The translations under genes were made by a program, and so were the position numbers. The notes beneath the pieces are model-generated. The model saw only the letters and a program-made list of their open reading frames with translations, ran no database searches and was not told the origin of the DNA. From a virus, in the IMG/VR virus record IMGVR_UViG_3300021961_000284, positions 1-36,342 of that record: a DNA stretch of 36,342 bases. One strand, given 5' to 3'. This document shows positions 1 through 36,342 of the stretch, piece after piece (position 1 is the first letter of the stretch; each line of letters starts with the position of its first letter).

Positions 1-448
1 TGCGCTGCAGCGACTTGGTATATTCGACAAACTGCAAATCGGAGAATTCGCGAACAAGCGGAATTCGATTTCCGTCGTGCAATGCGATCCAGTTAACATC
101 GGTTGAGCCATTAAGCCGCGCAACTGGTATAAGGCCTTGCTTGGCGGCTTGGCGCTGCAGCAAAGCCAACGCCTTGCGCAAACCGGCAATGTAGGATTTG
201 CGGTCATGCATAAATGTGCGCGCCTTGTTTATGCGCGATTGCATAACGCTAGAATAGACGGAAACCATACCGGCATGTTCGCCAAGGCAAATGGATTTGC
301 AGGCCTCACTAGCGTCGGGGCAAAGATTGCCAACACCTGCAATTCTGGCCGGGGCCATGTAATGAATGCCGTTCAAATAGCCGAATTGCCCGGCAAGCTT
401 TGCCTTGTGTGACGTGGTAGAAAGTAATTTTTGATGATCGATTTGCAT
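1..448 (-). CDS. GP88-like protein, N-terminal part (cut by window edge)
   Basis: An open frame starts with ATG at 448 and runs without a stop to base 1, about 149 residues. It was read by hand from the reverse strand. The N-terminal third has a cysteine-rich motif, LCPDASEACKSICLGEHAGM, followed by a basic helix-rich stretch and a segment with VARLNGSTDVNWIAL and FVEYTKS. This layout is that of the phage 'gene product 88' family (PF17338 type), whose biochemical function is unknown. A good leader, GAGGGACAAACA, lies directly before the ATG. The family continues after the YTK motif with about 35-40 residues and then a VAVVF...IDGD...LRFLDP...KKDTSGFVV end. That end is found in frame at the other edge of the window (36125-36342). 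The gene follows the 497-1171 gene on the same strand. Family assignment is from remembered motifs. Confidence 0.8.
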   Translation of the reverse strand, partial: MQIDHQKLLSTTSHKAKLAGQFGYLNGIHYMAPARIAGVGNLCPDASEACKSICLGEHAGMVSVYSSVMQSRINKARTFMHDRKSYIAGLRKALALLQRQAAKQGLIPVARLNGSTDVNWIALHDGNRIPLVREFSDLQFVEYTKSLQR

Positions 449-481: not shown

Positions 482-497
482 AGGGGCCGTAGCCCCT
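482..497 (-). other. Intercistronic hairpin with UACG-type tetraloop
   Basis: On the minus strand, AGGGGC-TACG-GCCCCT forms a perfect 6-bp stem closed by a TACG loop, a member of the very stable UNCG tetraloop class. It touches the stop codon (499-497) of the preceding gene and lies upstream of the GP88-like leader. No T-run follows on the minus strand, so it is more likely an mRNA-stabilising or processing hairpin, or a weak attenuator, than a full terminator. Confidence 0.5.
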
Positions 498-1171
498 CAC
501 TTTGCCTTCGGGCGGCTGATGATGGTCTGGGCAACGCCATCCCGGTAGTCATGCGCCTTGATGGTTGCCTTGATTTTGATCTGCGCGCCCTTGTCGCCGA
601 TCCGTTTGGAGCCCTTATAGACGACCACATTCGCGTCAGCATCCTCGCAGATGTGCACGAATGTTGTGCCGAACTGCGTCTCGAAATCAGTCATGAACTT
701 GATGGTCAGATCAAAGTCGCGGCGCTCGCCGACCGTGCCAATGTGCTTGGCGGTGGCGGCCTTTTCGGCCTTGGCGGCCTCGCGGGCGGCGATGCGCTCG
801 TGAGCCTGCTCGATCATCCGCAGCACGGCCTGCTCCTGCCCCTTGGTCAGGCGGCCCCATTCAATCAGGCTGTCACGCATTTTGGAGTAGAACGCGCCGT
901 ATGCAGCGCGCACGACCGGATGGGTGGCAAAGTGCGTTTCATTGAAACGGTCAGTGCCTTCGATTGGCGCGAACTCGCCGCGCTCATGCAGGAAATCGCT
1001 GCAGCGGGTCACGACCGCCTCGCCGCTCTCGGCAATCCAGCGGTTACGTGCGCCCTTGGCGGCATTGGCCGCGATGCGGGCTTTTGTCGCACGGATGTAA
1101 GCCCCTGCGTTTTTGATGTGGTCGGGGACATTGATGCTGGGGAGGCGGCGGGGTGCGTTGACGTTGGACAT
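497..1171 (-). CDS. Conserved phage hypothetical protein, helix-rich
   Basis: About 224 residues. I prefer the ATG at 1171 (MSNVNAPRR...) because GGAG lies six bases upstream; an in-frame ATG at 1183 has no good ribosome site. The protein is highly charged and alanine-rich in the middle (residues about 120-150, with repeated AERIAAREAAKAEKAA-like helix). It ends in a short basic beta-like tail with IKIKATIKAHDYRDG and SRPKAK. Similar hypothetical proteins ending in IKATIKAH...RPK are, to my memory, recurrent in phages of Alphaproteobacteria, but no function is known to me. It is the first gene after the promoter-like site at 1268-1296 and is followed by the GP88-like gene, so it probably belongs to an early leftward operon. 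No membrane segment or catalytic motif is visible. Confidence 0.75.
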   Translation of the reverse strand: MSNVNAPRRLPSINVPDHIKNAGAYIRATKARIAANAAKGARNRWIAESGEAVVTRCSDFLHERGEFAPIEGTDRFNETHFATHPVVRAAYGAFYSKMRDSLIEWGRLTKGQEQAVLRMIEQAHERIAAREAAKAEKAATAKHIGTVGERRDFDLTIKFMTDFETQFGTTFVHICEDADANVVVYKGSKRIGDKGAQIKIKATIKAHDYRDGVAQTIISRPKAK

Positions 1172-1267
1172 TTCTAGCTCCATAGCCTACTAGGGCTGCG
1201 CAGCACCATTGCTGCTATACCCACTACTTTATACATTCTTTTGTGAGTGTAAAGCCATTTTTTTAAC

Positions 1268-1296: not shown

Positions 1297-1365
1297 GGTA
1301 AAGCTTAAAATTATAAAAACCGCACAAAAAAATAGCGCATAACATATTGAAATCATTATAAATCA

Positions 1366-1394
1366 AATAAAAAAAAGCCCCGCCGAAGCGGGGC
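1366..1394 (-). terminator. Rho-independent terminator after the prim-pol gene
   Basis: On the minus strand, GCCCCGC-TTCG-GCGGGGC gives a perfect 7-bp GC stem (1394-1377), followed at once by a run of seven T and more T-rich sequence (1376-1366). It lies 25 bases after the stop codon of the 1420-3672 gene. The TTCG loop and T-tract are textbook for intrinsic termination. Confidence 0.9.
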
Positions 1395-1419
1395 AAGTCG
1401 TTTCGGGGTATCCAGCCAG

Positions 1420-3672
1420 TTACCCAGCTGAATTTCGTCGGCGGTAGGCTTTAACGCCATCTTTTCGATATTTCGTTTTACGCTGATCCATGTCCAGCAA
1501 ATTGGCTTTAACTAGGCTATCGAGGCAGGCTTGCACGTCTGACTGCCGTGCTTTTCTGATTTTATTACAGATCACGCCAAACGTCATGTAATCGTCAAAA
1601 CCGATCAGGTTCAAAAGCTTAAACCGCAGGCTGTCGGCTGGCGCTGATTTTTCACGATCATTCGCTGTTACCAAAACTGCCTTGGCGTCTATATCTCGGC
1701 GGACCAAGGCCGCAGCCCAATCCACATGCTCGACAGTGCGCAAGCCAGACGGTGCTGCCAGAATGAAAGATACTTTCAGGACCAACTCGAAAGCGCCAAG
1801 CGCCAGCGATCCAAGCCCGTTCTGCGCGGCGTATGCTTCCGCCATGTCCTGAAATTCGTCGCTGACCTGTTCCAGCCGCTCGATAGCCTCCGGGCTGGAT
1901 GGGATTCTTATTGGCTCGCCGTAATATTCAAGCCGTTCGTCTTCCGTCATATCATATTCGCCGCCGGTATAAAGCGCGGCTAATGTCGCAGCCATGGTTT
2001 TCTGGATCGGGTTTTTGCTGAAGCCTTTTTTGAGCCGCGGTACCGGATCAGTTTCACGAAATACCAATGCGCGACCCACGAAGCCGTTTGCTGCCGACTG
2101 GAAATCCAGCAGCGTGTCGAACGTCTCCGGCGTTGTGAACCCGGCAATGCTTAGAAATGGCTTTTCGATGCCATCATCGATCTTTTCCAACTGGGATTTA
2201 ATCCGCTCTGCCCGCCGCTCAACCGGCCTGCCATCGTCCAGCATTTTTTGCACCGCAGCATATTCGGAATTGAGCGCTTTGCGAATTTCGTCCTTTAGGT
2301 CGCCTGAAATCAGGAAATAAGCATCGGCCTTGGAATAGACCGACATCAGGATCGCGATCACGCCTTCGAGATATGCTGCACCGCCGCGAGCGGATGCGTT
2401 TTTCAGCTTTTGCAGCAGCAGCCCGAACTCATCGAGAATATACATGCAGGACTGATGCCGGATGAGATTGCGCACGACTTCCTGTTCTGACTTGATAGCG
2501 CCGTGCGTTGCTTTGTGAATACCGGCCGCGACATGCAGATCACGGATAGCCTGCTGAATAGGCTCTTTGCCGGTGCGCGGATCAGCCACGAAAAACGAAA
2601 ACAGATTGCTAGTCGCCTGATAATCGTCCCGGTATTTCAGCCCTATGATATTGCCGACCGCCGTTAATGCTGCGCCAACTGCCAGATTTTCGCGTGGCCT
2701 GCGAGACTGGGAATTGATCCATTCGCAAACCTGACCGACAAAACCTGGAGGCCGCAGCAAATCAACTTCGATTTTTCCAGTTTCTGGAATTTCAAATTTA
2801 TCGCTAGGCTCGAACGTCACACTTTGTTGCCATCCGTTGTTTTCGGCATGGTGGACAAGCGTACCCAGCGTCACCGGATTTACCGATTTACCAAACGAAT
2901 GCCAGCGGCGTTCCAGATTGTCTTTCCCGGGATATTTTCCGCCACGGGCTGACCAATCATCCCAGACGGCAAATGCTGTGCCGCCGCTCGCCTGATGACA
3001 AGCCATTCCGCATCTAATCCACAGCTCATGCTCGCAGTCTGGATTGATAACCGCCAGCATCCCAGCCAGATCGGAATGCGAAACGTCCATATATGTTCCT
3101 GCGAATTCGCTGCGGTGCAACTCCGGCCTTTTCAGGATTTCCAGCAATTCCTGCGGCGCGTCGTCTATATCGTCAACGGAGCCATATTCGAGCGAATATT
3201 TTTTTCCTGATGAATGAACCGATCCCGGCCCTACAACGTAGCCGCTCGATTTGAAGTCAATGCCGGGATAGTCGGCATGATGCTGGAGCAGAGCCATACC
3301 AGAAGGCGCCCGAAAATACATATGCCGCGAGCCGCCACCGGAACCTGTGGCGACAACCAGCCCGCATTTTTCGATGGCTGGTATATCAGATCGCAGCCGC
3401 TCGAAAGACGCTACACCGCTATTTCGGGCGTCAACGTCAATCACAAGCAGATCACGGATCAGCACTCCATAACCAGTCTTGAATTGTTCAGCTTGTTCCA
3501 TGGCGTCAATCTGTTCAGCCGCCCAGATCGGCGTATGCTGCCAGTTAGACGCCACCGGATGCTTTCCAGCACCATTGCAGTGCTCATTGCCACATGCGCA
3601 GCCGCCACCCTTGCGTATCGGCCACAAACCGAAAACGCGATGGCCTCCCTCCCAGAATTCTTTGTACATCAT
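1420..3672 (-). CDS. Prim-pol / PriCT / ATPase-like phage replication protein
   Basis: 750 residues. Residues 1-180 are a bifunctional primase-polymerase (AEP/prim-pol) domain: the metal-binding DVD at 79-81, SGGGSRH with H117, and GIDFKSSG at 137-144 are visible, and an N-terminal CxCxxxxC cluster lies near residue 25. Residues about 195-282 resemble a PriCT-2 helical domain. Residues 305-600 resemble the P-loop part of DUF3987-type replication proteins. The Walker A-like motif reads DPRTGKEP (364-371), with glutamate where Ser/Thr is usual, and LDEFG (413-417) could be Walker B. The last 70 residues look like a basic winged helix. The role is probably initiation or priming of phage DNA synthesis. 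It overlaps the upstream HTH gene by an ATGA. Two adjacent ATGs (3672, 3669) are possible starts after GGAGG. Confidence 0.85.
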   Translation of the reverse strand: MMYKEFWEGGHRVFGLWPIRKGGGCACGNEHCNGAGKHPVASNWQHTPIWAAEQIDAMEQAEQFKTGYGVLIRDLLVIDVDARNSGVASFERLRSDIPAIEKCGLVVATGSGGGSRHMYFRAPSGMALLQHHADYPGIDFKSSGYVVGPGSVHSSGKKYSLEYGSVDDIDDAPQELLEILKRPELHRSEFAGTYMDVSHSDLAGMLAVINPDCEHELWIRCGMACHQASGGTAFAVWDDWSARGGKYPGKDNLERRWHSFGKSVNPVTLGTLVHHAENNGWQQSVTFEPSDKFEIPETGKIEVDLLRPPGFVGQVCEWINSQSRRPRENLAVGAALTAVGNIIGLKYRDDYQATSNLFSFFVADPRTGKEPIQQAIRDLHVAAGIHKATHGAIKSEQEVVRNLIRHQSCMYILDEFGLLLQKLKNASARGGAAYLEGVIAILMSVYSKADAYFLISGDLKDEIRKALNSEYAAVQKMLDDGRPVERRAERIKSQLEKIDDGIEKPFLSIAGFTTPETFDTLLDFQSAANGFVGRALVFRETDPVPRLKKGFSKNPIQKTMAATLAALYTGGEYDMTEDERLEYYGEPIRIPSSPEAIERLEQVSDEFQDMAEAYAAQNGLGSLALGAFELVLKVSFILAAPSGLRTVEHVDWAAALVRRDIDAKAVLVTANDREKSAPADSLRFKLLNLIGFDDYMTFGVICNKIRKARQSDVQACLDSLVKANLLDMDQRKTKYRKDGVKAYRRRNSAG

Positions 3673-3848
3673 GCCTCCGACAGATATGCCTCGATTTTGC
3701 GCAGTATAGCCAAGGTTGGATTGCAGTTTTTGCCTGTGGCAATGGCCCTGACCGTGTTGTAATGCACACCGATCGCCTTTGATACGGTCATGATGTTTCG
3801 ATCTTTCAACCTCTCCCGCAAGCTAGACAATATTTCGTCGCAAGTCAT
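3669..3848 (-). CDS. Small HTH (XRE/Cro-like) regulator
   Basis: 59 residues from the ATG at 3848, with GGAG ten bases upstream. A longer in-frame form from 3959 would read across the divergent control region and into the next gene's start, and is unlikely. Residues about 20-45 (MTVSKAIGVHYNTVRAIATG) fit a helix-turn-helix of the XRE/Cro type, with the recognition helix around HYNTVRAI; the C-terminal helix (PTLAILRKIEAYL) is typical of small Cro-like dimers. It lies between the inverted repeat at 3875-3918 and the prim-pol gene, with which it overlaps by ATGA. I infer that it controls its own operon and the divergent recombination operon. There is no separate oligomerisation or cleavage domain, so it is not a LexA/CI-type repressor. 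Confidence 0.8.
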   Translation of the reverse strand: MTCDEILSSLRERLKDRNIMTVSKAIGVHYNTVRAIATGKNCNPTLAILRKIEAYLSEA

Positions 3849-3874
3849 TTTTTTGTGTCTCCTGTGAAAAAAAA

Positions 3875-3918
3875 TGTTTACAAATCTGCAATACAATATT
3901 AGGTAGACAATGTAAACA
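3875..3918. promoter_or_regulatory. Divergent control region with inverted repeat (operator candidate)
   Basis: TGTTTACA (3875-3882) and its exact reverse complement TGTAAACA (3911-3918) flank a 28-base AT-rich spacer between the leftward HTH gene and the rightward ATPase gene. Each arm contains TTTACA reading outward to inward, so each could overlap a -35 element of the promoter on its strand; good -10 matches are not obvious. The position and symmetry fit binding by the HTH protein encoded next to it (inference). Confidence 0.5.
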
Positions 3919-3934
3919 AGAAAAGGAGAGCCCA

Positions 3935-4687
3935 ATGGGCATTTTAGACACTGTATCAAAACCGGCTGATCGTCCGGTACTAGTCACGATCACTGGCGAC
4001 TCAGGCATGGGTAAAACCAGCCTAGCCGCAACCTTCCCAAATCCGATTGTTATCCGCGCAGAAGATGGCTTGCAGGCGATCCCAGCCGATAAGCGCCCTG
4101 ATGCGTTCCCGCTTTTGGTGGGCGTCGATAGCCTTTGGGAGCAACTGAAAGCTTTGATTCATGAGGATCACAGCTATAAAACACTGGTCGTCGATAGCGT
4201 CACGGCGCTGGAACGGCTTTTCACTACGCATGTCGTGGAAACCGATCCAAAAAAACCGCGAGGCATCCAGCAGGCTTTAGGCGGCTACGGCGCCGGACGC
4301 GATGCAGTTGCGGCGATGCACGCACGGCTTCGCAAGGCGGCGGGTATCTTGGCCGATAAGCGTGGCATGCACACAGTCTTTATTGCCCATGCTGACACCA
4401 GCCGGATCGAGCCGCCTGACGATGACGCATATATGCGTTACACTTTGCGCCTGCACGAAAAATCCATGCCTGCCTACGTTGATGACGTAGACATTGTGGG
4501 TTTCTTGAAATTGCAGACGTTCACCACCGGCGACGGCGACCGCAAGAAAGCGATTTCAGATGGCACGCGCCAACTGATTACATACGCAACTGCGGCTAAC
4601 GTCTCCAAAAACAGATACGGCATCACTGAACCGATCACGGTCCAACATGGCATTAATCCATTCACTAACATCATAGCAGGAGTCTAA
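3935..4687 (+). CDS. Sak4-type RecA-like ATPase (AAA_24), ssDNA annealing
   Basis: 250 residues. Walker A is GDSGMGKT (21-28) and Walker B is TLVVDS (83-88), followed by SVTALERL, the RecA-core arrangement of the phage 'AAA_24/Sak4' group. Members are single-domain RecA-like annealases used in phage recombination, typically encoded beside an SSB. That is true here: the next gene is an SSB-like protein 3 bases on, and a YqaJ exonuclease follows. RecA's N- and C-terminal accessory domains are absent. The start at 3935 has AGGAG seven bases upstream. It heads the rightward operon and is probably controlled from the inverted-repeat region just upstream. The family is clear; its exact activity is inferred from relatives. 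Confidence 0.85.
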   Translation: MGILDTVSKPADRPVLVTITGDSGMGKTSLAATFPNPIVIRAEDGLQAIPADKRPDAFPLLVGVDSLWEQLKALIHEDHSYKTLVVDSVTALERLFTTHVVETDPKKPRGIQQALGGYGAGRDAVAAMHARLRKAAGILADKRGMHTVFIAHADTSRIEPPDDDAYMRYTLRLHEKSMPAYVDDVDIVGFLKLQTFTTGDGDRKKAISDGTRQLITYATAANVSKNRYGITEPITVQHGINPFTNIIAGV

Positions 4688-4690
4688 AAG

Positions 4691-5173
4691 ATGAGCATTT
4701 GGGATAATATTGGCGACGATCAGATCAGCGATAGCTTTGATATGGGCGGCGGCGAAATTGCACCGATCCCGTCAAACACAAATGTCGCTGCAATCATCGA
4801 CGAAGCGAAATGGGACAGTCGCGATGGCGTTGACTACATCAGCCTGCGTTGGTCCGTCTTGGCGCCAGCCGATTATAAAAATCGAAAGGTGTGGCAGAAG
4901 CTGCAAGTGCGCGACGAGAAGAAAGCGCAAAAGCACGCTCGTATGTTAGCGCATATAGATCACATCGCTGGTGCTAAACTGATGGAGCGTGACGTTGACC
5001 CAACCGATCAGGACTTGCAGGCGCTTTGTAATCGGCCTATGCAAATCAAGGTGATGGTCTGGGAAATCGACGATAAGAAAGGCAACTGGGTTTGCGCCGT
5101 TTCTAAAAACGGACCTAAGCCAATGCCTACTGCTGCACCATCCGCAGCACCGGCAGAAGATGTGCCGTTCTAG
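4691..5173 (+). CDS. SSB-like ssDNA-binding protein (DUF669 type)
   Basis: 160 residues. The middle is a beta-rich single domain (residues 25-130, with WDSRDGVDYISLRWSVL and QIKVMVWEID). A flexible Pro/Ala linker follows, and the protein ends in AEDVPF, which copies the acidic DDIPF-like tip of bacterial SSBs that recruits partner proteins. Phage DUF669-type proteins with this shape behave as SSBs and sit between Sak4 and an exonuclease, as here. Its ribosome site, AGGAG, lies in the end of the upstream gene. A strong GC hairpin (5182-5202) follows the stop codon, consistent with high expression. It likely coats single-stranded DNA during replication and annealing. Confidence 0.8.
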   Translation: MSIWDNIGDDQISDSFDMGGGEIAPIPSNTNVAAIIDEAKWDSRDGVDYISLRWSVLAPADYKNRKVWQKLQVRDEKKAQKHARMLAHIDHIAGAKLMERDVDPTDQDLQALCNRPMQIKVMVWEIDDKKGNWVCAVSKNGPKPMPTAAPSAAPAEDVPF

Positions 5174-9140: not shown

Positions 9141-9560
9141 ATGGACTTGATAATCAATAAAAACTTTGACTTCATTGCTCACTATAAAGCGGTCAAGAAA
9201 AGAATAGCTGATGCAGCGAAAGACCAACAAACGCTCAAAAGAGAACAGGAGCAATTAAAAAATGCTGAACTAAAAAGAAAGGAACAAGAACAATTAAATC
9301 GTATAAAAGAAATTGCTCAAAGCGTTAGACCCATTGCCATTGACGTTCTGCGCGAAATGGCATCAAAATATAATGTAACAATTGAAGATATCTGCGGAAA
9401 TAGACGCACAAAAGAATTGATAGACCCACGTTATGAATTCTGCTGGATTATGAATAAAAAACACAAATGGACACTGACGAAGATAGCTAAGTTTTTGGGA
9501 AAAGATCACACCACTATTTTACATGGAATAAATAAATTTTCTGAAAAAAATAATCTGTAA
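9141..9560 (+). CDS. DnaA domain IV-like DNA-binding protein
   Basis: 139 residues. Residues 15-60 are a Lys/Glu/Gln-rich coiled coil. Residues 62-139 match DnaA domain IV (Bac_DnaA_C), including the box-binding signature KDHTTILHGI (121-130; the bacterial form is DHSTVIHA) and the upstream TKIAKFLGK helix. There is no AAA+ ATPase domain, so this is a stand-alone DNA binder. It might mark the phage origin, or compete with host DnaA for DnaA boxes (inference). It is the last gene of the rightward operon, with a possible bidirectional hairpin terminator 10 bases downstream. Confidence 0.85.
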   Translation: MDLIINKNFDFIAHYKAVKKRIADAAKDQQTLKREQEQLKNAELKRKEQEQLNRIKEIAQSVRPIAIDVLREMASKYNVTIEDICGNRRTKELIDPRYEFCWIMNKKHKWTLTKIAKFLGKDHTTILHGINKFSEKNNL

Positions 9561-30093: not shown

Positions 30094-31476
30094 TCACAAG
30101 AGACGAATTGCCGGTGCGGCATTATTTAATAAAACATCAGATATGGCCGACATTGTGCAATCGATCATATCGTCATGGGCTGCGTTCGGAAACAATCCCG
30201 CCTCGCTCAGAAAGTCGGCCAAATGTGGCACATTGTTAAGCAATAGCACATTTCCACTTTCGATTAAAGGTGCTGCATCGAAGGCCCTAGTCACCTTGTC
30301 TATGTTGCGTTTTATACCAACCATCGGGATGCCTTCGCGCTTTAGCTTTTGAATCAGCCCAGTGCCACTGACTTTATCTTCAACTTTGAAAGCCCGGAGT
30401 GTGCCTTTGTTCTCGACCGCCTTATGCTTTGCCCAGAACGCTCGCGCCATTGTTTCCAGTTCCGGTGCTTCCCATTTACCGCGAGCCATGTCGAGCATAA
30501 TAGCTTGGCCGTTTACTGTATGGCCCCAGCACTGCATCACGGAATAATCGTTCTGCTCTTTTGTCTTTTGCGCGGTATCTGCATATATCGACCGCCACAA
30601 GATGGGTGGGCTTGCATCACGCATCTGCCACCAGTGGTCTTTGAATATACCGCCGCCCAGAGGCGCTGGCTGCTGCATGTATTGACCTGCATAAACATAG
30701 CTGCTGGCACGTTCTAGGCGATCCAGCATTTCGTCGGGGAATTGCTGCGGCCAGAACGAGCTGCCGTCATCCATCCGCGCCGGGATGACTAGGTGATCCC
30801 ACTTCTCGCCAGACCCGCCATTGAGAAGCCAGCCCGATAGATCGTTTTCATGCAGGCGCTGCATGATGATAATGATCGGCCCGTCTGGTTTGTTCAGACG
30901 GCTTGCGATGGTCGATTGATACCAGTCGATCACGTTCTGCCGCATGGTTTCGGATGTGGCTTCGCCTGCCTTGTGCGGATCGTCTATGATAATTGCCCCA
31001 CCAAAGCTATTGCGCATCTTGCTGGCACCATATCCGGTTATCGTACCATCGGCACCGGTGGCATAGACAACGCCGCCTTGCCCGGTTCGGAACTCATCCT
31101 TTGCTCGGCTATCGTCTTGGATCGCGGTCCACGGGAAGATCGCCCTGTATTCATCCGATTGCATGATTGCTCGAACTTCATAGGTGTTTGATGTCGCAAG
31201 CCGCTTGGAATAGCTGGCGTGGATAAATTCGGCATCCGGGAATAGCCCCATCGACCACGCTATAAAGTTCTTAACGGCCATTTCGGTTTTACCGGATCGC
31301 GGCGGCACGTTGATGATAAGTCGATTGGTGCAGCCCAGTATAACGCGCTCAAGCGCCGCACATATTTCCTCCTGATGCCAGTTTTCCAGCATCGGGGTGC
31401 CTTTGCGTGCTTTGAATATATATCGGCTAAAATGATACAAGCGGCCCAGAAGCAGGGCTTGCTCATTCTGGTTCAC
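30094..31476 (-). CDS. Terminase large subunit
   Basis: 460 residues, start GTG at 31476. ATPase: Walker A-like VPPRSGKTEM (57-66) and Walker B IIIDDPHK (162-169, D165/D166). Nuclease (RNase H-like): D300 in SIYADTAQ, E366 in FKVEDKVSGTG and D435/D436/D439 in HDDMID. It also has the GYGASKMRNSFGG element of the phage T4/T7-like Terminase_6 group. It packages DNA through the portal encoded next. It begins directly after the stop of a secreted-protein gene. Confidence 0.93.
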   Translation of the reverse strand: MNQNEQALLLGRLYHFSRYIFKARKGTPMLENWHQEEICAALERVILGCTNRLIINVPPRSGKTEMAVKNFIAWSMGLFPDAEFIHASYSKRLATSNTYEVRAIMQSDEYRAIFPWTAIQDDSRAKDEFRTGQGGVVYATGADGTITGYGASKMRNSFGGAIIIDDPHKAGEATSETMRQNVIDWYQSTIASRLNKPDGPIIIIMQRLHENDLSGWLLNGGSGEKWDHLVIPARMDDGSSFWPQQFPDEMLDRLERASSYVYAGQYMQQPAPLGGGIFKDHWWQMRDASPPILWRSIYADTAQKTKEQNDYSVMQCWGHTVNGQAIMLDMARGKWEAPELETMARAFWAKHKAVENKGTLRAFKVEDKVSGTGLIQKLKREGIPMVGIKRNIDKVTRAFDAAPLIESGNVLLLNNVPHLADFLSEAGLFPNAAHDDMIDCTMSAISDVLLNNAAPAIRLL

Positions 31477-31845
31477 TTAACCGCCCGCCTGCTGCTGCAC
31501 AAGACAATAAGTCCTGCGCAATTCAATTTGTTTAGACACTGACAAGAATAATATTGTTCCCATTTTTTGAGGCGCCAATGGCCATTTCACAATTTTTTTG
31601 ATCGGAACAGAAACTATTTCGCCACGTTTTGCTGTCGGATGTTTCATTGGATCAGTTATCTCGACGGCAACAGCATCTTTAGATGACGCTATAACACGAG
31701 CCTTGACTGCATCACCTTCGCCGCAACAATTATATGTTGTGCCGTCAAAAAACTCTGCTTGTTTTACATCTTCAAAAAACTGCTTACGTTCATCCGCAAT
31801 TACGGGACTAAACATAAACAATAATGCAATCAGGCTATTCTTCAT
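31477..31845 (-). CDS. Secreted Cys-containing protein between TerS and TerL
   Basis: 122 residues. MKNSLIALLFMFSPVIADERK is a Sec-type signal peptide, cleavage near residue 17-18 (PVIA-DE). The mature part has FFDGTTYNCCGEGDAVKARV with two adjacent Cys (C40-C41), and a KRGEIVSVPIKKIV beta segment. I recall a family of phage proteins with 'CCGE.DA' after a signal peptide, found near head genes, of unknown role. It overlaps the TerS gene by 11 bases and ends immediately before TerL's start. A periplasmic protein among packaging genes is odd; perhaps an exclusion or lysis-timing accessory. Confidence 0.75.
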   Translation of the reverse strand: MKNSLIALLFMFSPVIADERKQFFEDVKQAEFFDGTTYNCCGEGDAVKARVIASSKDAVAVEITDPMKHPTAKRGEIVSVPIKKIVKWPLAPQKMGTILFLSVSKQIELRRTYCLVQQQAGG

Positions 31846-32200
31846 GGATTTTGCCCAGCGCGGCCAATACTGCCGCCTGTACTGGCTCCGGCTTTAGTGA
31901 GCCATCCTCGTTGGAGATGTCTATGGTTTCCCGCCATTTGGCACGAGTTTTCATCCAGAAAATCGCAGCAGCGACATTGCCTTTTTTATCCGGCGATGTT
32001 GCGATCTGAAACAGATTATTCGCGACCTGTGCGTTCAGCTTTGCCATGCCGATATCGAGTTCTGCGCGATAGTATTTCCGCAGCGTCTCGTCTGATATGC
32101 CGATGATTGCCGCAATATCGTCGTGCTTCATGCCGATGCCAGCCATCAGTGTTACCTGATTGCGGGATCGTTCGTCTGGTTCATACGCTGGCATTACCAT
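31835..32200 (-). CDS. Terminase small subunit
   Basis: 121 residues. MAGIGMKHDDIAAIIGISDETLRKYYRAEL (19-48) is a helix-turn-helix of terminase-small type, followed by LDIGMAKLNAQVANNLFQIATSPDKKGNVAAAIFWMKTRAKWRE, the usual oligomerisation helices. It recognises the packaging start on the DNA and regulates TerL. It overlaps the glycosyltransferase gene by 20 bases, and the secreted-protein gene by 11. The start is at 32200 or the third residue ATG at 32194. Confidence 0.88.
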   Translation of the reverse strand: MVMPAYEPDERSRNQVTLMAGIGMKHDDIAAIIGISDETLRKYYRAELDIGMAKLNAQVANNLFQIATSPDKKGNVAAAIFWMKTRAKWRETIDISNEDGSLKPEPVQAAVLAALGKIHEE

Positions 32201-33119
32201 ATTGCACCAATTTCATCCCATATTCATTAACCTGATCCGATATTTGCAGATCATTTTTTCGTATCAGCTTTCTATTCTTGAACGGTGTATAATCTACATG
32301 ATGATGATACCGTCCGAACTTAAATACCAGCCTTGATACATCTGGATGTACTTTAACTTGCATCTGACTTTTTGCCAATGTTCCTGTATCTGCATATTTT
32401 TCGCCGGATTTTACTGATCCTTCAGCATGATAAAATTCTGCTGTATTTCCACCTTTAATAGTTTGAGTGTTCATCTTTTCTTGCAAGAACGCATTAAACT
32501 GAACAGTACACCATCCAGCTTTTAACATATCTAATGAGATTATCGTATCTTCATTGTAACGACCGCGCCATCTAAATGATAAATCGTTTTTTATAAGATT
32601 ACATGAATATATTCGTGTGTTCATTATAAATGGCGGTATTTTGCTTCTAGCCGGGGCAAACATATGATAATTGGGTCCAGCCATAGCAATATTTTTATAA
32701 CGCAATACAAAATCTTCCATTGCCTTAAAAAATGATCCTGTTGATACTTTTACTCTTTCATTTTTATTTAATCTTCTAAACGAAAGAATATTATCATCCA
32801 TAACCCAGTGCCATTTATGTCCATTTGCAATACTATGATCCCATGCAAAATTTCTTGCCGGTCCCGGTCCAGTGCTTTTAGACAATCCTAAATTATCGCA
32901 TAATTCATACTTTTCTTTATAAGATAAATCTAACTCTATAGCCTTTGCCATTAAATTCATATCTGATATTGCTTTTATGTATTCTTTCATTTGATTTGGT
33001 TCAACAATAATACAATGTGGCACTCCCATCTTCGTTAAATATTTTGAAGTTATCATATATTCAGAGCGCCCTTTGCTCGGAATATATAATGGAAATTGAG
33101 GTTTATTTGCTTTATCCAT
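32181..33119 (-). CDS. TAGT-like glycosyltransferase (TET/JBP-associated type)
   Basis: 312 residues. Blocks are FPLYIPSKGRSE (9-20), STGPGPARNFAWDHSIANGHKWHWVMDDN (82-110, metal-binding DDN at 108-110), MAGPNYHMFAP, NTRIYSCNLIKNDLSFRWRGRYNEDT (167-192), GWCTVQFNAFLQEKMNTQT and FGRYHHHVDYTPF. These are the hallmarks I recall for the GT-A-like TAGT family (PF20691 type), described by comparative genomics as linked to base hypermodification in phages. The substrate here is unknown; no TET/JBP oxygenase or hydroxymethylase is seen. It overlaps the ParB-domain gene by 8 bases, so the two are likely coupled. It is more AT-rich than its neighbours. Glycosylation of DNA or of a virion protein are the options. 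Confidence 0.8.
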   Translation of the reverse strand: MDKANKPQFPLYIPSKGRSEYMITSKYLTKMGVPHCIIVEPNQMKEYIKAISDMNLMAKAIELDLSYKEKYELCDNLGLSKSTGPGPARNFAWDHSIANGHKWHWVMDDNILSFRRLNKNERVKVSTGSFFKAMEDFVLRYKNIAMAGPNYHMFAPARSKIPPFIMNTRIYSCNLIKNDLSFRWRGRYNEDTIISLDMLKAGWCTVQFNAFLQEKMNTQTIKGGNTAEFYHAEGSVKSGEKYADTGTLAKSQMQVKVHPDVSRLVFKFGRYHHHVDYTPFKNRKLIRKNDLQISDQVNEYGMKLVQYGNASV

Positions 33120-33765
33120 ATCGTTTTGACTCTGTATCCATTTTTTCTTGTTCTGGGAACCATATTGATTTTGTTTTATCAGTATGGCTTTGCCCTATTA
33201 TGCTAAAGAACTCTGCAACATCATCATTATTTTCAAAATGAACTATAATATGCCTAAATGATTTTTTGTCTTTTTGATCATATTCAGGCATATCTTTCCA
33301 TTCTTCTTCCGGATTAGTAATTCCTTGCTCTATATCTAATGATATATTGGCCAATTCTCCTTCCGAAAAACCAATCAGCCCCAGATCGAACCCGGCAACA
33401 TCGAGATCGCCAATCTCCACCTTCAGCAGGTCCATATCCCAGCCAGCATTAAGCGCCAGTTGGTTGTCGGCCAGAACGTAGGCTTTCTTCTGCGCCTCGC
33501 TCCAGCCGGTCGCCACCATAACCGGCACTTCGTCGATCCCCAACTTGCGAGCCGCCATAACGCGACCATGCCCTGCGATGATCTGGCTGTCCTCATCCAC
33601 CAACACTGGGCTAGTCCAGCCCCACTCCTTGATCGACGCTGCCAGTTGCGCCACTTGCTCGTCGGAATGCGTTCTGGCGTTGCGTGCATACGGGATCAGG
33701 CTATCGACTGACCGACGCTCGATCTTGTCGGCGGGCCATCCTTTTATTGCGCCAATTTTACTCAT
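33112..33765 (-). CDS. ParB/sulfiredoxin-like domain protein
   Basis: 217 residues from the ATG at 33765 (AAGG five bases upstream). The ParB N-terminal core is residues 12-110: RRSVDSLIPYARNARTHSDEQVAQLAASIKEWGW, PVLVDEDSQIIAGHGRVMAARKLG (GHGR at 65-68) and VLADNQLALNAGWD. Relatives are often fused to a DNA methyltransferase; here that part is missing, and the tail (170-217) has FRHIIVHFENNDDVAEFFSIIGQ and DKTKSIWFPEQ. That tail pattern I have seen with ParB/TAGT phage loci. The ParB fold can bind or cut nucleic acid or use nucleotides; the activity is not shown. It is coupled to the TAGT gene. Confidence 0.8.
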   Translation of the reverse strand: MSKIGAIKGWPADKIERRSVDSLIPYARNARTHSDEQVAQLAASIKEWGWTSPVLVDEDSQIIAGHGRVMAARKLGIDEVPVMVATGWSEAQKKAYVLADNQLALNAGWDMDLLKVEIGDLDVAGFDLGLIGFSEGELANISLDIEQGITNPEEEWKDMPEYDQKDKKSFRHIIVHFENNDDVAEFFSIIGQSHTDKTKSIWFPEQEKMDTESKRYG

Positions 33766-33766
33766 C

Positions 33767-33895
33767 TTAACCTTTGCAGCAAATGATTTCGGCCAAGGCC
33801 GCATATACCCCATGCGGCGGCAGAAGCGGCGTTATCTTGCACCCGCTGGTCCATACGGTGTTAATTTCGTGCAGCGGCGCATAAAAAAATACCAT
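33767..33895 (-). CDS. 42-aa hypothetical protein upstream of ParB
   Basis: 42 residues from the ATG at 33895 (MVFFYAPLHEINTVWTSGCK...), chosen because GGAGG lies eight bases upstream. The open frame extends to 34015, but the extra part has a composition of random translation and overlies two hairpins. The peptide has PLLPPHGVYAALAEIICC near its end. The stop TAA is one base before the ParB ATG (TAAGATG), so it is coupled to it. No family is recognised. Confidence 0.5.
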   Translation of the reverse strand: MVFFYAPLHEINTVWTSGCKITPLLPPHGVYAALAEIICCKG

Positions 33896-34199: not shown

Positions 34200-34220
34200 C
34201 TAACAGCTATAGCTGTTAGT
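34199..34220. repeat. 22-bp perfect palindrome at a gene end
   Basis: The arms ACTAACAGCTA and TAGCTGTTAGT are exact reverse complements with no spacer, so the 22 bases are a perfect palindrome. It contains the stop codon (34202-34200) of the 34200-34394 gene. A further copy of AGCTGTTAGT lies at 34068-34077. It could be a protein-binding site or form a hairpin in RNA. Confidence 0.65.
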
Positions 34221-34394
34221 CACTATCAGATTTTGATCGCCTGACTTGCGGTTTGATACTTCAAGCCGCATCCTTTTAAGATTCGCTTCAAGCTCCGGTG
34301 CTGGGCGACCGCCTGTTTTTAAGATTGCAGCGATGATGGTCTCTGCATCCACAATGGCCGTTTCTAGTTCTTTTGTCGTATATGCCGGGAACAT
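34200..34394 (-). CDS. 64-aa hypothetical protein
   Basis: 64 residues with GGAGG five bases before the ATG at 34394. MFPAYTTKELETAIVDAETIIAAILKTGG is mostly one helix, then RPAPELEANLKRMRLEVSNRK a second charged helix: a small helical hairpin. The last residues TNSYSC are encoded by half of the 22-bp palindrome. No family is recognised. It is the last gene before the AT-rich region, 67 bases after the M15 peptidase gene; that short gap contains an imperfect inverted repeat around A-rich sequence. Confidence 0.7.
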   Translation of the reverse strand: MFPAYTTKELETAIVDAETIIAAILKTGGRPAPELEANLKRMRLEVSNRKSGDQNLIVTNSYSC

Positions 34395-34461
34395 TATTAC
34401 CTCCTGCGTCTGCCGTAGAATAAATGCAAGAGGTGGGTAACCGGCTTTTTTTAGCGATTAC

Positions 34462-34836
34462 CTACCCCTTTTTTTTGCCGCAGCCTTTATACCAAGTCCG
34501 CGCTGATCCTTTTATTTCGATATGCAAGTGGTGCATTCGCCCGCAATACCAGCCGACGCGAAAGCCCGCCCTATGTGCCCGCTTTTCAATCGTCTTGCGG
34601 CTAACGCCTTTGGGCGGGTAAACGTCTATTGCGCGGCCACTTGCGTGCAGGCTTGGCTTATGCGTCCCGGCGATCTTTGCGTTTCTGCGAAAGCCAGAAA
34701 TAACTCGCAATCGGTTTTTTGTTGCGAATTGACAAAGTTTTATGTTGACGCCGCGACAATTTTTTGCCTGCGCTACGGGTGGTTCTATAGCGCAGGCAGA
34801 TAGCAAGATTGCCATCATGATTGGTATGATCTTCAT
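34462..34836 (-). CDS. M15-type peptidase, predicted lipoprotein
   Basis: 124 residues. The signal MKIIPIMMAILLSAC ends in a lipobox LSAC with C15. The domain has FRRNAKIAG, H64 in LHASGRAIDV with D71, and H103/H105 in HHLHIEI, the zinc ligands (H-x6-D ... H-x-H) of M15 D-Ala-D-Ala carboxypeptidases such as VanY or phage L-alanyl-D-glutamate endolysins. It would cut or trim peptidoglycan from the inner leaflet of the outer membrane, or the periplasm. It is well away from the lysis cassette, among small early-type genes. It overlaps the micro-gene 34833-34910 by ATGA. The C terminus encodes a poly-A run (AAAAAAAA), which could slip. Confidence 0.85.
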   Translation of the reverse strand: MKIIPIMMAILLSACAIEPPVAQAKNCRGVNIKLCQFATKNRLRVISGFRRNAKIAGTHKPSLHASGRAIDVYPPKGVSRKTIEKRAHRAGFRVGWYCGRMHHLHIEIKGSARTWYKGCGKKKG

Positions 34837-34910
34837 TCAGGGAACATCATTAAAATCATAATGCCAAACGAGAAAGCCATCATCGTGAAATTAAAAGCAG
34901 TGTTTTTCAT
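34833..34910 (-). CDS. 25-aa membrane micro-peptide
   Basis: ATG at 34910 and stop TGA overlapping the peptidase ATG as ATGA; its own start overlaps the upstream stop likewise. The peptide is MKNTAFNFTM followed by a hydrophobic helix, MAFSFGIMILMMFPE at the end. It matches the 27-aa peptide at 36014-36097 in the NT.F.F..MA..FG..IL..FPE pattern, which makes expression more credible than size alone. One membrane helix is predicted; function unknown. Confidence 0.55.
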   Translation of the reverse strand: MKNTAFNFTMMAFSFGIMILMMFPE

Positions 34911-35137
34911 AGTCCTACTTCCTTTTCTGTCCATTCTTCGATGTTTACCTTTATTGGCTTTGGGTCTGACATTATTGCGTCAACACATTCGCCGTAAGTC
35001 ATAAATTGAGAACCTGTATTCGTAAACCAAGCGCCTGACTTGGCTTTCCAGAATTGGCCTATATCGTCACCATTTCTCGATACAGTATAAACCAAAAGAA
35101 CTGGATGTAACCTTATTTCAGTGATGATAGTTATCAT
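34907..35137 (-). CDS. 76-aa hypothetical protein (paralogue of the upstream gene)
   Basis: 76 residues. LLVYTVSRNGDDIGQFWKAKSGAWFTNTGSQFMTYGECVDAIM is similar in layout to the 35118-35348 product (WYAVEIDGELVAALC...AAWWVVLDW...FHTFGEAIDYV): a Y-V strand, a G turn, a W-rich middle and a (T/F)-Y/F-GE-x-x-D-x helix. Both look like small alpha/beta domains of phage proteins of unknown function. The start at 35137 overlaps the previous gene by 20 bases; the stop overlaps the micro-gene start by ATGA. Confidence 0.65.
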   Translation of the reverse strand: MITIITEIRLHPVLLVYTVSRNGDDIGQFWKAKSGAWFTNTGSQFMTYGECVDAIMSDPKPIKVNIEEWTEKEVGL

Positions 35138-35348
35138 TTCTTTCGACCTCCATTTTCTTTACTGCTGCCTCAATCTTGACGTAATCTATCGCCTCGCCAA
35201 ATGTATGAAAATACTCTGCATAATTTGGGAGCCAATCTAGAACGACCCACCATGCCGCTTGCGTCCTACACAGTGCAGCCACAAGTTCGCCATCTATTTC
35301 GACTGCATACCAATTCTGGTGCCGTTTGACTGTTAAATTTTCCATCAT
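35118..35348 (-). CDS. 76-77-aa hypothetical protein
   Basis: About 76 residues from the ATG at 35348 (a second ATG follows directly at 35345; a GTG at 35354 is also in frame). AGGTGG lies just upstream, and the ATG overlaps the previous stop (ATGA). The middle has WYAVEIDGELVAALCRTQAAWWVVLDWL and FHTFGEAIDYVKIEAAVKK. See the next gene for the likely paralogy. No catalytic residues or membrane segments are visible; many Trp residues suggest a compact small domain. Confidence 0.65.
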   Translation of the reverse strand: MMENLTVKRHQNWYAVEIDGELVAALCRTQAAWWVVLDWLPNYAEYFHTFGEAIDYVKIEAAVKKMEVERNDNYHH

Positions 35349-35632
35349 AGCCACCTACAATCATCGTGGCAGCAATCTAGAATAAAATCATCCAGCTTTG
35401 CAAAAACTGCCTGCGCCAGTTTAGTTTTTATTTCGATTGTTTCGCATATATCATCATTTTCCCAGTCTGCTTCGCCGTCGGTCACATCCACCAGTCGCAA
35501 AAGTTCCGGCTCCCATTCAATCGAATGATCTGTGTGGCGTGCATAATTCACAAAGATTGATCCGCCATATAAGCGCCCGTCAAATTCAAATTCCTCAACA
35601 GGTATTTTAGCACTTCCGTATGTGATTTTCAT
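35345..35632 (-). CDS. 95-aa hypothetical protein
   Basis: 95 residues from the ATG at 35632, preceded by GGAG six bases upstream (an in-frame ATG at 35644 is weaker). KITYGSAKIPVEEFEFDGRLYGGSIFVNYARHTDHSIEWEPELLRLVD is a beta-rich first half with an acidic second half (DGEADWENDDICETIEI), ending in a cysteine cluster CCHDDC. No family is recognised. It belongs to the run of coupled small genes that begins at the window's right edge. Confidence 0.65.
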   Translation of the reverse strand: MKITYGSAKIPVEEFEFDGRLYGGSIFVNYARHTDHSIEWEPELLRLVDVTDGEADWENDDICETIEIKTKLAQAVFAKLDDFILDCCHDDCRWL

Positions 35633-35671
35633 TTCTTGCTCCATCTCTTACTGGTTAGCTGCGCCTGATCA

Positions 35672-35989
35672 TCAGATTGCTACGCAATCGGCTTTGTATT
35701 CCGCTGCAATTTCGCCGTCAGCATCAAAAAAGTCTAACGGTATTTGCGTAGCGATTAAGTAGTTTTTATCGCGGCGGATATACGTGTTATCGCTGATTAA
35801 CAAATTCGCGACAATATTGTGAGCATCCGCAAGGCGGCCAGTGAAGCGCCACGCCTCATAGTGGCCATCTCCATCGTCGGTAGTAAAAACGGCTGGCGCA
35901 TTAGCCCAACTGCCATTGGCAGGCTTGCCATGACCATACGTATCAATCAATTCTACGGTTCCGGTCTGTGTTTTGTGTTGATATGCCAT
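35672..35989 (-). CDS. 105-aa hypothetical protein
   Basis: 105 residues; the start is firm because the leader GAGGGACAAACA (35990-36001), identical to that of the GP88-like gene, precedes the ATG. The sequence is beta-rich with GTVELIDTYGHGKPANGSWANAPAVFTTDDGDGHYEAWRF and TYIRRDKNYLIATQIPLDFFDAD. No catalytic motif is recognised. It follows the 27-aa membrane peptide by about 24 bases. Confidence 0.7.
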   Translation of the reverse strand: MAYQHKTQTGTVELIDTYGHGKPANGSWANAPAVFTTDDGDGHYEAWRFTGRLADAHNIVANLLISDNTYIRRDKNYLIATQIPLDFFDADGEIAAEYKADCVAI

Positions 35990-36124: not shown

Positions 36125-36342
36125 TCAAGCCGCGATTGCGGCTTGTGTTGCTTCAGCATGCCACACGACAAAGCCGCTTGTGTCTTTCTTGGCCTTGCTT
36201 CCCTTTGGCTTCAGCGCAACAATTTTGCCGCAACCATTGCCGCGCATGTCGGGATCAAGATGACGCAAATCGGACGCGTCGCCATCGATTGTCTCAAAGC
36301 CGCAAAATTGAGCGGGCATGGCGCAACCAAAGCACACTGCAA
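36125..36342 (-). CDS. GP88-like protein, C-terminal part (cut by window edge)
   Basis: An open frame enters from the window edge (codon phase: 36342-36341 are the last two bases of a codon) and ends at TGA 36127-36125. It reads AVCFGCAMPAQFCG, then ETIDGDASDLRHLDPD, and KIVALKPKGSKAKKDTSGFVVWHAE. This corresponds to the C-terminal end of GP88-like proteins (VAVVF..KLPE...VIDGD..DLRFLDP...V.GL.AKG.AKKDTSGFVV). It joins in frame with the N-terminal part at 1-448 if the sequence is circular. A GTG at 36337 would be only an apparent start. About 35-40 family residues between the two parts seem to be absent at a direct join. Confidence 0.75.
   Translation of the reverse strand, partial: AVCFGCAMPAQFCGFETIDGDASDLRHLDPDMRGNGCGKIVALKPKGSKAKKDTSGFVVWHAEATQAAIAA

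Follow-up and report, generated by a model that had tools for sequence, protein, structure and literature searches.

A gp88 gene divided between the two ends of a 36,342-b phage record and the near-complete circular map that it points to

Introduction

The virus record IMGVR_UViG_3300021961_000284 begins and ends inside coding sequence, and the truncated frames at its two edges both resemble the phage protein GP88 (PF17338). This raises the question of whether the edges carry pieces of two different genes, or the front and the back of a single gene that was opened when the genome was assembled. The window analysed here is the whole of that record, 36,342 b in length. The reading that best accounts for the evidence, and one that we regard as very probably correct, is a near-complete, circularly mapping phage of siphovirus type with one gp88, opened by an assembly that came about 108 b short of closing; the window would then terminate in the two parts of one gene because assembly halted before closure. 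The window termini are not real genome ends, and the split gene is an assembly consequence that is useful for annotation and biologically ordinary.

Results

Two edge fragments of gp88

The left frame opens with an ATG at position 448 of the minus strand, continues for 149 codons down to base 2, and leaves a single base, A, at position 1. At the right edge, bases 36342-36341 supply TT, the end of a split codon, and are followed by 71 codons from 36340 and a stop (Table 1). The N-terminal fragment matches PF17338 at 59.6 bits, past the cut-off of 24.4, and the corresponding phrog_1617 match has an E value of 3.2e-21; by tblastn the fragment is 63-64% identical to the intact GP88 genes of two viral contigs, L002 and L003. 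The 71-aa C-terminal piece gives no match to the Pfam PF17338 model and is identified by phrog_1617, in which the matches of the two fragments stand in consecutive order. The original prediction had read the left frame as a GP88 N-terminus running off the edge with one base over, and the right frame as a GP88 C-terminus in need of two bases; both readings hold. Strand and frame are kept when the edges are joined (1 + 2 bases), as had also been claimed, and the direct join contains no internal stop.

Alignment of the joined protein to PF17338, the check that had been proposed, confirmed the N-terminal part and left the C-terminal part without support from that model, since the C-terminal piece contributes almost nothing to a score of 59-63 bits. 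Joining the pieces does raise the PHROG score, from 76.7 to 112.8 bits, whereas a control with the C-terminal piece reversed scores 75.9. No end overlap of at least 5 b was detected between the window termini, as a gap of about 108 b would predict, and no long direct or inverted repeats were found within the window. No exact 20-mer pair separated by a gap of 92-122 b was found in the public viral contigs scanned, so the join is unspanned by an exact match among them.

Table 1. Features at and near the edges of the window, with the matches or relatives that bear on the join.
Feature	Position	Strand	Comment
gp88, 5′ part	1..448	-	PF17338 10-140, E 5.3e-16; phrog_1617 37-176
Left-edge gene of unknown function (phrog_27218)	497..1183	-	only close relative on L039, across the join
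Prim-Pol/PriCT-2 primase	1420..3672	-	in relatives on one contig with ParB-TerS-TerL, lying a few kb upstream and so across the join; weak similarity (22-27%)
Sak4-like annealing protein	3935..4687	+	phrog_124, E 3.8e-42; divergent from primase
Right-edge module overall	30094..33813	-	contiguous with left-edge genes in L039, L096
TerL	30094-31476	-	
Small ORF	31477-31845	-	
TerS	31835-32200	-	
TAGT (TET-associated glycosyltransferase)	32181-33119	-	PF20691, E 4e-39; between ParB and TerS
ParB-like	33112-33813	-	
Small variable genes separating ParB from gp88	34200..35989	-	e.g. 35345-35644, 35672-35989
gp88, 3′ part	36125..36342	-	phrog_1617 223-270 of 273, E 6.6e-10

Gene order across the join

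Genes that lie at opposite ends of the window are adjacent in seven related contigs (L039, L096, G012 and G017-G020). The 9.6-kb contig L039 (IMGVR_UViG_3300005805_001827) carries on one piece a copy of the left-edge gene that is 91% identical over 141 residues and, about 2 kb downstream and in the same direction, ParB, TerS and TerL genes that are 71-80% identical to those of the window. It differs in that other genes, the first of them a 427-aa metallophosphoesterase-like ORF, stand in the place of gp88 and the small genes, and in that its ParB-like protein extends into a DNA-methylase-like part and has no TAGT after it. In L096, Sak4 and an HTH gene from the left side of the window and ParB, TAGT, TerS and TerL from the right side are found within about 8.5 kb.

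Five contigs of 36.1-38.5 kb (G012 and G017-G020) have one circular order of structural, packaging and shared replication genes, but the cuts fall at different points: within the helicase gene in G012 and G018, between tail genes in G017, next to the capsid gene in G019, and within a head-tail gene in G020. Two of them have exact end overlaps, 51 b in G017 (IMGVR_UViG_3300035212_000171, 37,550 b) and 127 b in G018 (IMGVR_UViG_3300035438_000265, 37,263 b). Both share with the window the circular order Sak4, primase, ParB, TerS, TerL, portal, capsid, tail, helicase, and their TerL proteins are 73-74% identical to that of the window; unlike the window, they are cut elsewhere, have overlapping ends, give no PF17338 match, and have a primase that is weakly similar. 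Odd overlaps of k-mer size at contig ends usually indicate that short reads were assembled from a circular or concatemeric template (PMC8116208). Circular assemblies arise from cos phages too, and packaging in the phage of the window may be either headful or cos.

In relatives, Sak4 is the marker for the far left of the join; it is matched in position and direction in G017-G020 and L096. The primase is supporting evidence only, because its similarity in related contigs is weak, and it is the Sak4, ParB and terminase matches that carry the argument. As gp88 was not found in the circular relatives and its site is variable, the adjacency of the window ends rests on flanking genes rather than on an orthologous gp88. 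Together with the shifted cut points and the two end overlaps, L039, L096 and the 36-38 kb relatives support the claim of a circular or permuted genome close to 36.4 kb.

The gene content agrees with a near-complete genome. The packaging, head, tail, lysis and replication modules are all present, comprising terminase, portal, MuF, capsid, head-tail, tail, tape measure and endolysin genes and a replication set of primase, Sak4, SSB, exonuclease and helicase. With the gap included, the size would be about 36.45 kb, as against 37.1-37.5 kb for the relatives that are closed by end overlap.

Length and content of the missing stretch

The spacing between the two pieces was taken from 30 intact GP88 relatives from viral contigs, in which both pieces could be aligned. 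The number of intervening residues is 37 in 16 of these relatives, 33 in eight, and 32 in six, and L002 and L003, the two closest, each have the 37-residue spacing. Thirty-seven residues, with three bases of the split codons already in the window, give a missing length of 108 b, and the shorter spacings of 33 and 32 residues give 96 and 93 b. The measured ranges, 32-37 residues and 93-108 b, show that the earlier estimate of 35-40 residues or 100-120 bases was about right. The split codons are compatible with the family at both edges: the leftover A?? can code for M, the residue found at this position in L002 and L003, and ?TT can code for V, which is present there in 30/30 relatives. The middle part of GP88, about 37 residues with the family pattern LTFSxSxxN...C...GGNV, is not in the record.

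The ends could also be adjacent with a large gap between them, either because gp88 is interrupted by an intron, a homing endonuclease or another insertion, or because a longer stretch is missing. The window itself sets no upper limit on the gap, and the overlap-closed relatives are up to about 1 kb longer. We nevertheless consider this improbable, given that an insertion at this point is seen in 0/30 relatives, that the family spacing leads to about 108 b, and that all expected modules are already in the record.

A direct join, with the split codon reading ATT, no bases missing and an internally shortened GP88, is still harder to sustain. It would account for the open frame across the join, and the PHROG score of the joined protein is the same whether a 37-residue gap is included or not (112.5 and 112.8 bits). 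Against it, the stretch is deleted in none of the 30 intact relatives, and a shortened protein would lose the near-invariant residues N161, T165, S167, N172, G183 and V186. In a confident predicted model (mean pLDDT 92) the absent stretch spans a strand-helix-strand unit (E162-167, H173-181 and the start of E185-191), and it is because the missing piece is such a conserved unit that a shortened gene is unlikely. Moreover, had the join been covered, a k-mer overlap of the sort seen in G017 and G018 would normally be expected. Of the two possibilities that had been left standing in the original prediction, bases outside the window and a shortened family member, the former therefore fares much better.

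One gene rather than two paralogues

Over the first piece the window is 67% identical to L003, 63% to L002, and at most 52% to the remaining relatives. Over the second piece the values are 64% for L003 and 55% for L002, with several others at 62-66% over fewer columns, and this piece is too short for a sharp ranking of members by identity. A further character is an insert after the LDP motif (DPDMRGNGCG; DDDMRGIGPG; DPDGRRHGDG) that the window has in common with L002 and L003. C-terminal inserts of this DMRGxGxG type are rare, being missing or shorter in other GP88 members. Near relatives and a rare insert that are common to both halves indicate that the halves are not paralogues; the original prediction had named different paralogues as the finding that would count against it, and the nearest relative of both pieces is instead L003. 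The two GP88 places in some phages, such as the 384-kb Xanthomonas phage XacN1, might suggest that the window was cut from a larger genome and that its edges break two different gp88 genes. This is hardly credible in view of the shared relatives and insert, of the neighbours of both edges that are adjacent in L039 and L096, and of a size and gene set that match relatives with closed ends.

Discussion

How the gene was probably opened

Under the preferred reading of a single gp88 opened during assembly, the template would have been circular, or circularly permuted or concatemeric, DNA in the sample. The assembler would have opened the map inside gp88 and left about 108 b unclosed, giving two fragments on the same strand and in the same frame, and the missing bases would be an ordinary continuation of gp88. 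The break itself may stem from uneven coverage or from a fork in the assembly graph. A fork of this kind, within gp88 and between two phages, was observed in one other metagenome, where two contigs (L131:1-99 and L132:1-99) are identical for 99 b inside gp88 and then diverge completely. Contig breaks inside gp88 are present in 3 of 33 contigs against 4.7 expected, which is no excess over chance, so that a fork is a plausible and not a demonstrated cause for the window.

The record is best used as a genome of about 36.45 kb that is near-complete and maps as a circle, not as a linear one with natural ends, and gp88 is to be annotated as one gene rather than as two truncated ones. Complementary gene halves at the edges, combined with synteny across the join, recover near-complete phages that tests for end repeats would call linear fragments.

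Relationship to known phages

The TerL protein is 62-64% identical to those of the cultured Idiomarinaceae phage 1N2-2 (34.8 kb) and the Pseudoalteromonas phages PHS21 and SL25. The circular order of the window is also that of 1N2-2, in which the block of Sak4, HTH and primase genes continues around the deposited origin into TerS and TerL. These cultured relatives differ from the window in that most other shared genes are merely 25-47% identical, and no gp88 match was found in 1N2-2 or PHS21. Among bacterial genomes, TerL has a relative on one Mariprofundaceae MAG contig (52%), and no close relative of GP88 was found.

The closest intact GP88 members, those of L002 and L003, have different backbones from the window: the TerL of L002 is 27% identical, and L003 has matches only to a TerS-like (42%) and a MuF-like (36%) protein. 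In L002 (positions 1355-4762) the intact gp88 is flanked by homologues of the small right-edge genes 35345-35644 and 35672-35989, an arrangement which suggests that gp88 and these small genes may travel together. A separate scan for relatives of gene 35345-35644 returned none.

Next to ParB, the DNA-modification gene seems to be exchanged at a single position: L039 has a ParB-like protein that continues into the DNA-methylase-like part, and L096 has TAGT after ParB. No match to Tet_JBP was obtained in the record despite the presence of TAGT, in a search in which no control gave a signal and which is not proof of absence.

A lead on the function of GP88

No described function for PF17338 was found in the literature searched, and a PDB sequence search with a GP88 profile gave nothing significant. 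The predicted model of the L003 protein matches GP88 proteins from other phages. Against solved structures, Foldseek gave no significant match (E 0.099 or worse), whereas the 16 best VIA-align rows were all radical SAM enzymes (NifB, viperin, QueE, TYW1 and others), with Z scores of 5.0-6.1 that lie below the safe level. After its first strand, GP88 has three near-invariant cysteines spaced CX6CX3C, in place of the CX3CX2C motif of radical SAM enzymes. The resemblance of the predicted fold to these enzymes is a lead and not a conclusion. Tentatively, GP88 could be a radical-SAM-like [4Fe-4S] enzyme of an atypical kind, with its cysteines in a CX6CX3C arrangement, carried as exchangeable cargo between unrelated backbones and intact in this phage, although we would not call this the likelier case.

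A DnaA C-terminal DNA-binding domain (PF08299, E 6.9e-15) is present in a small protein that the window encodes at 9141-9560 on the plus strand, and short matches of a similar kind occur in several GP88-bearing contigs with other backbones.
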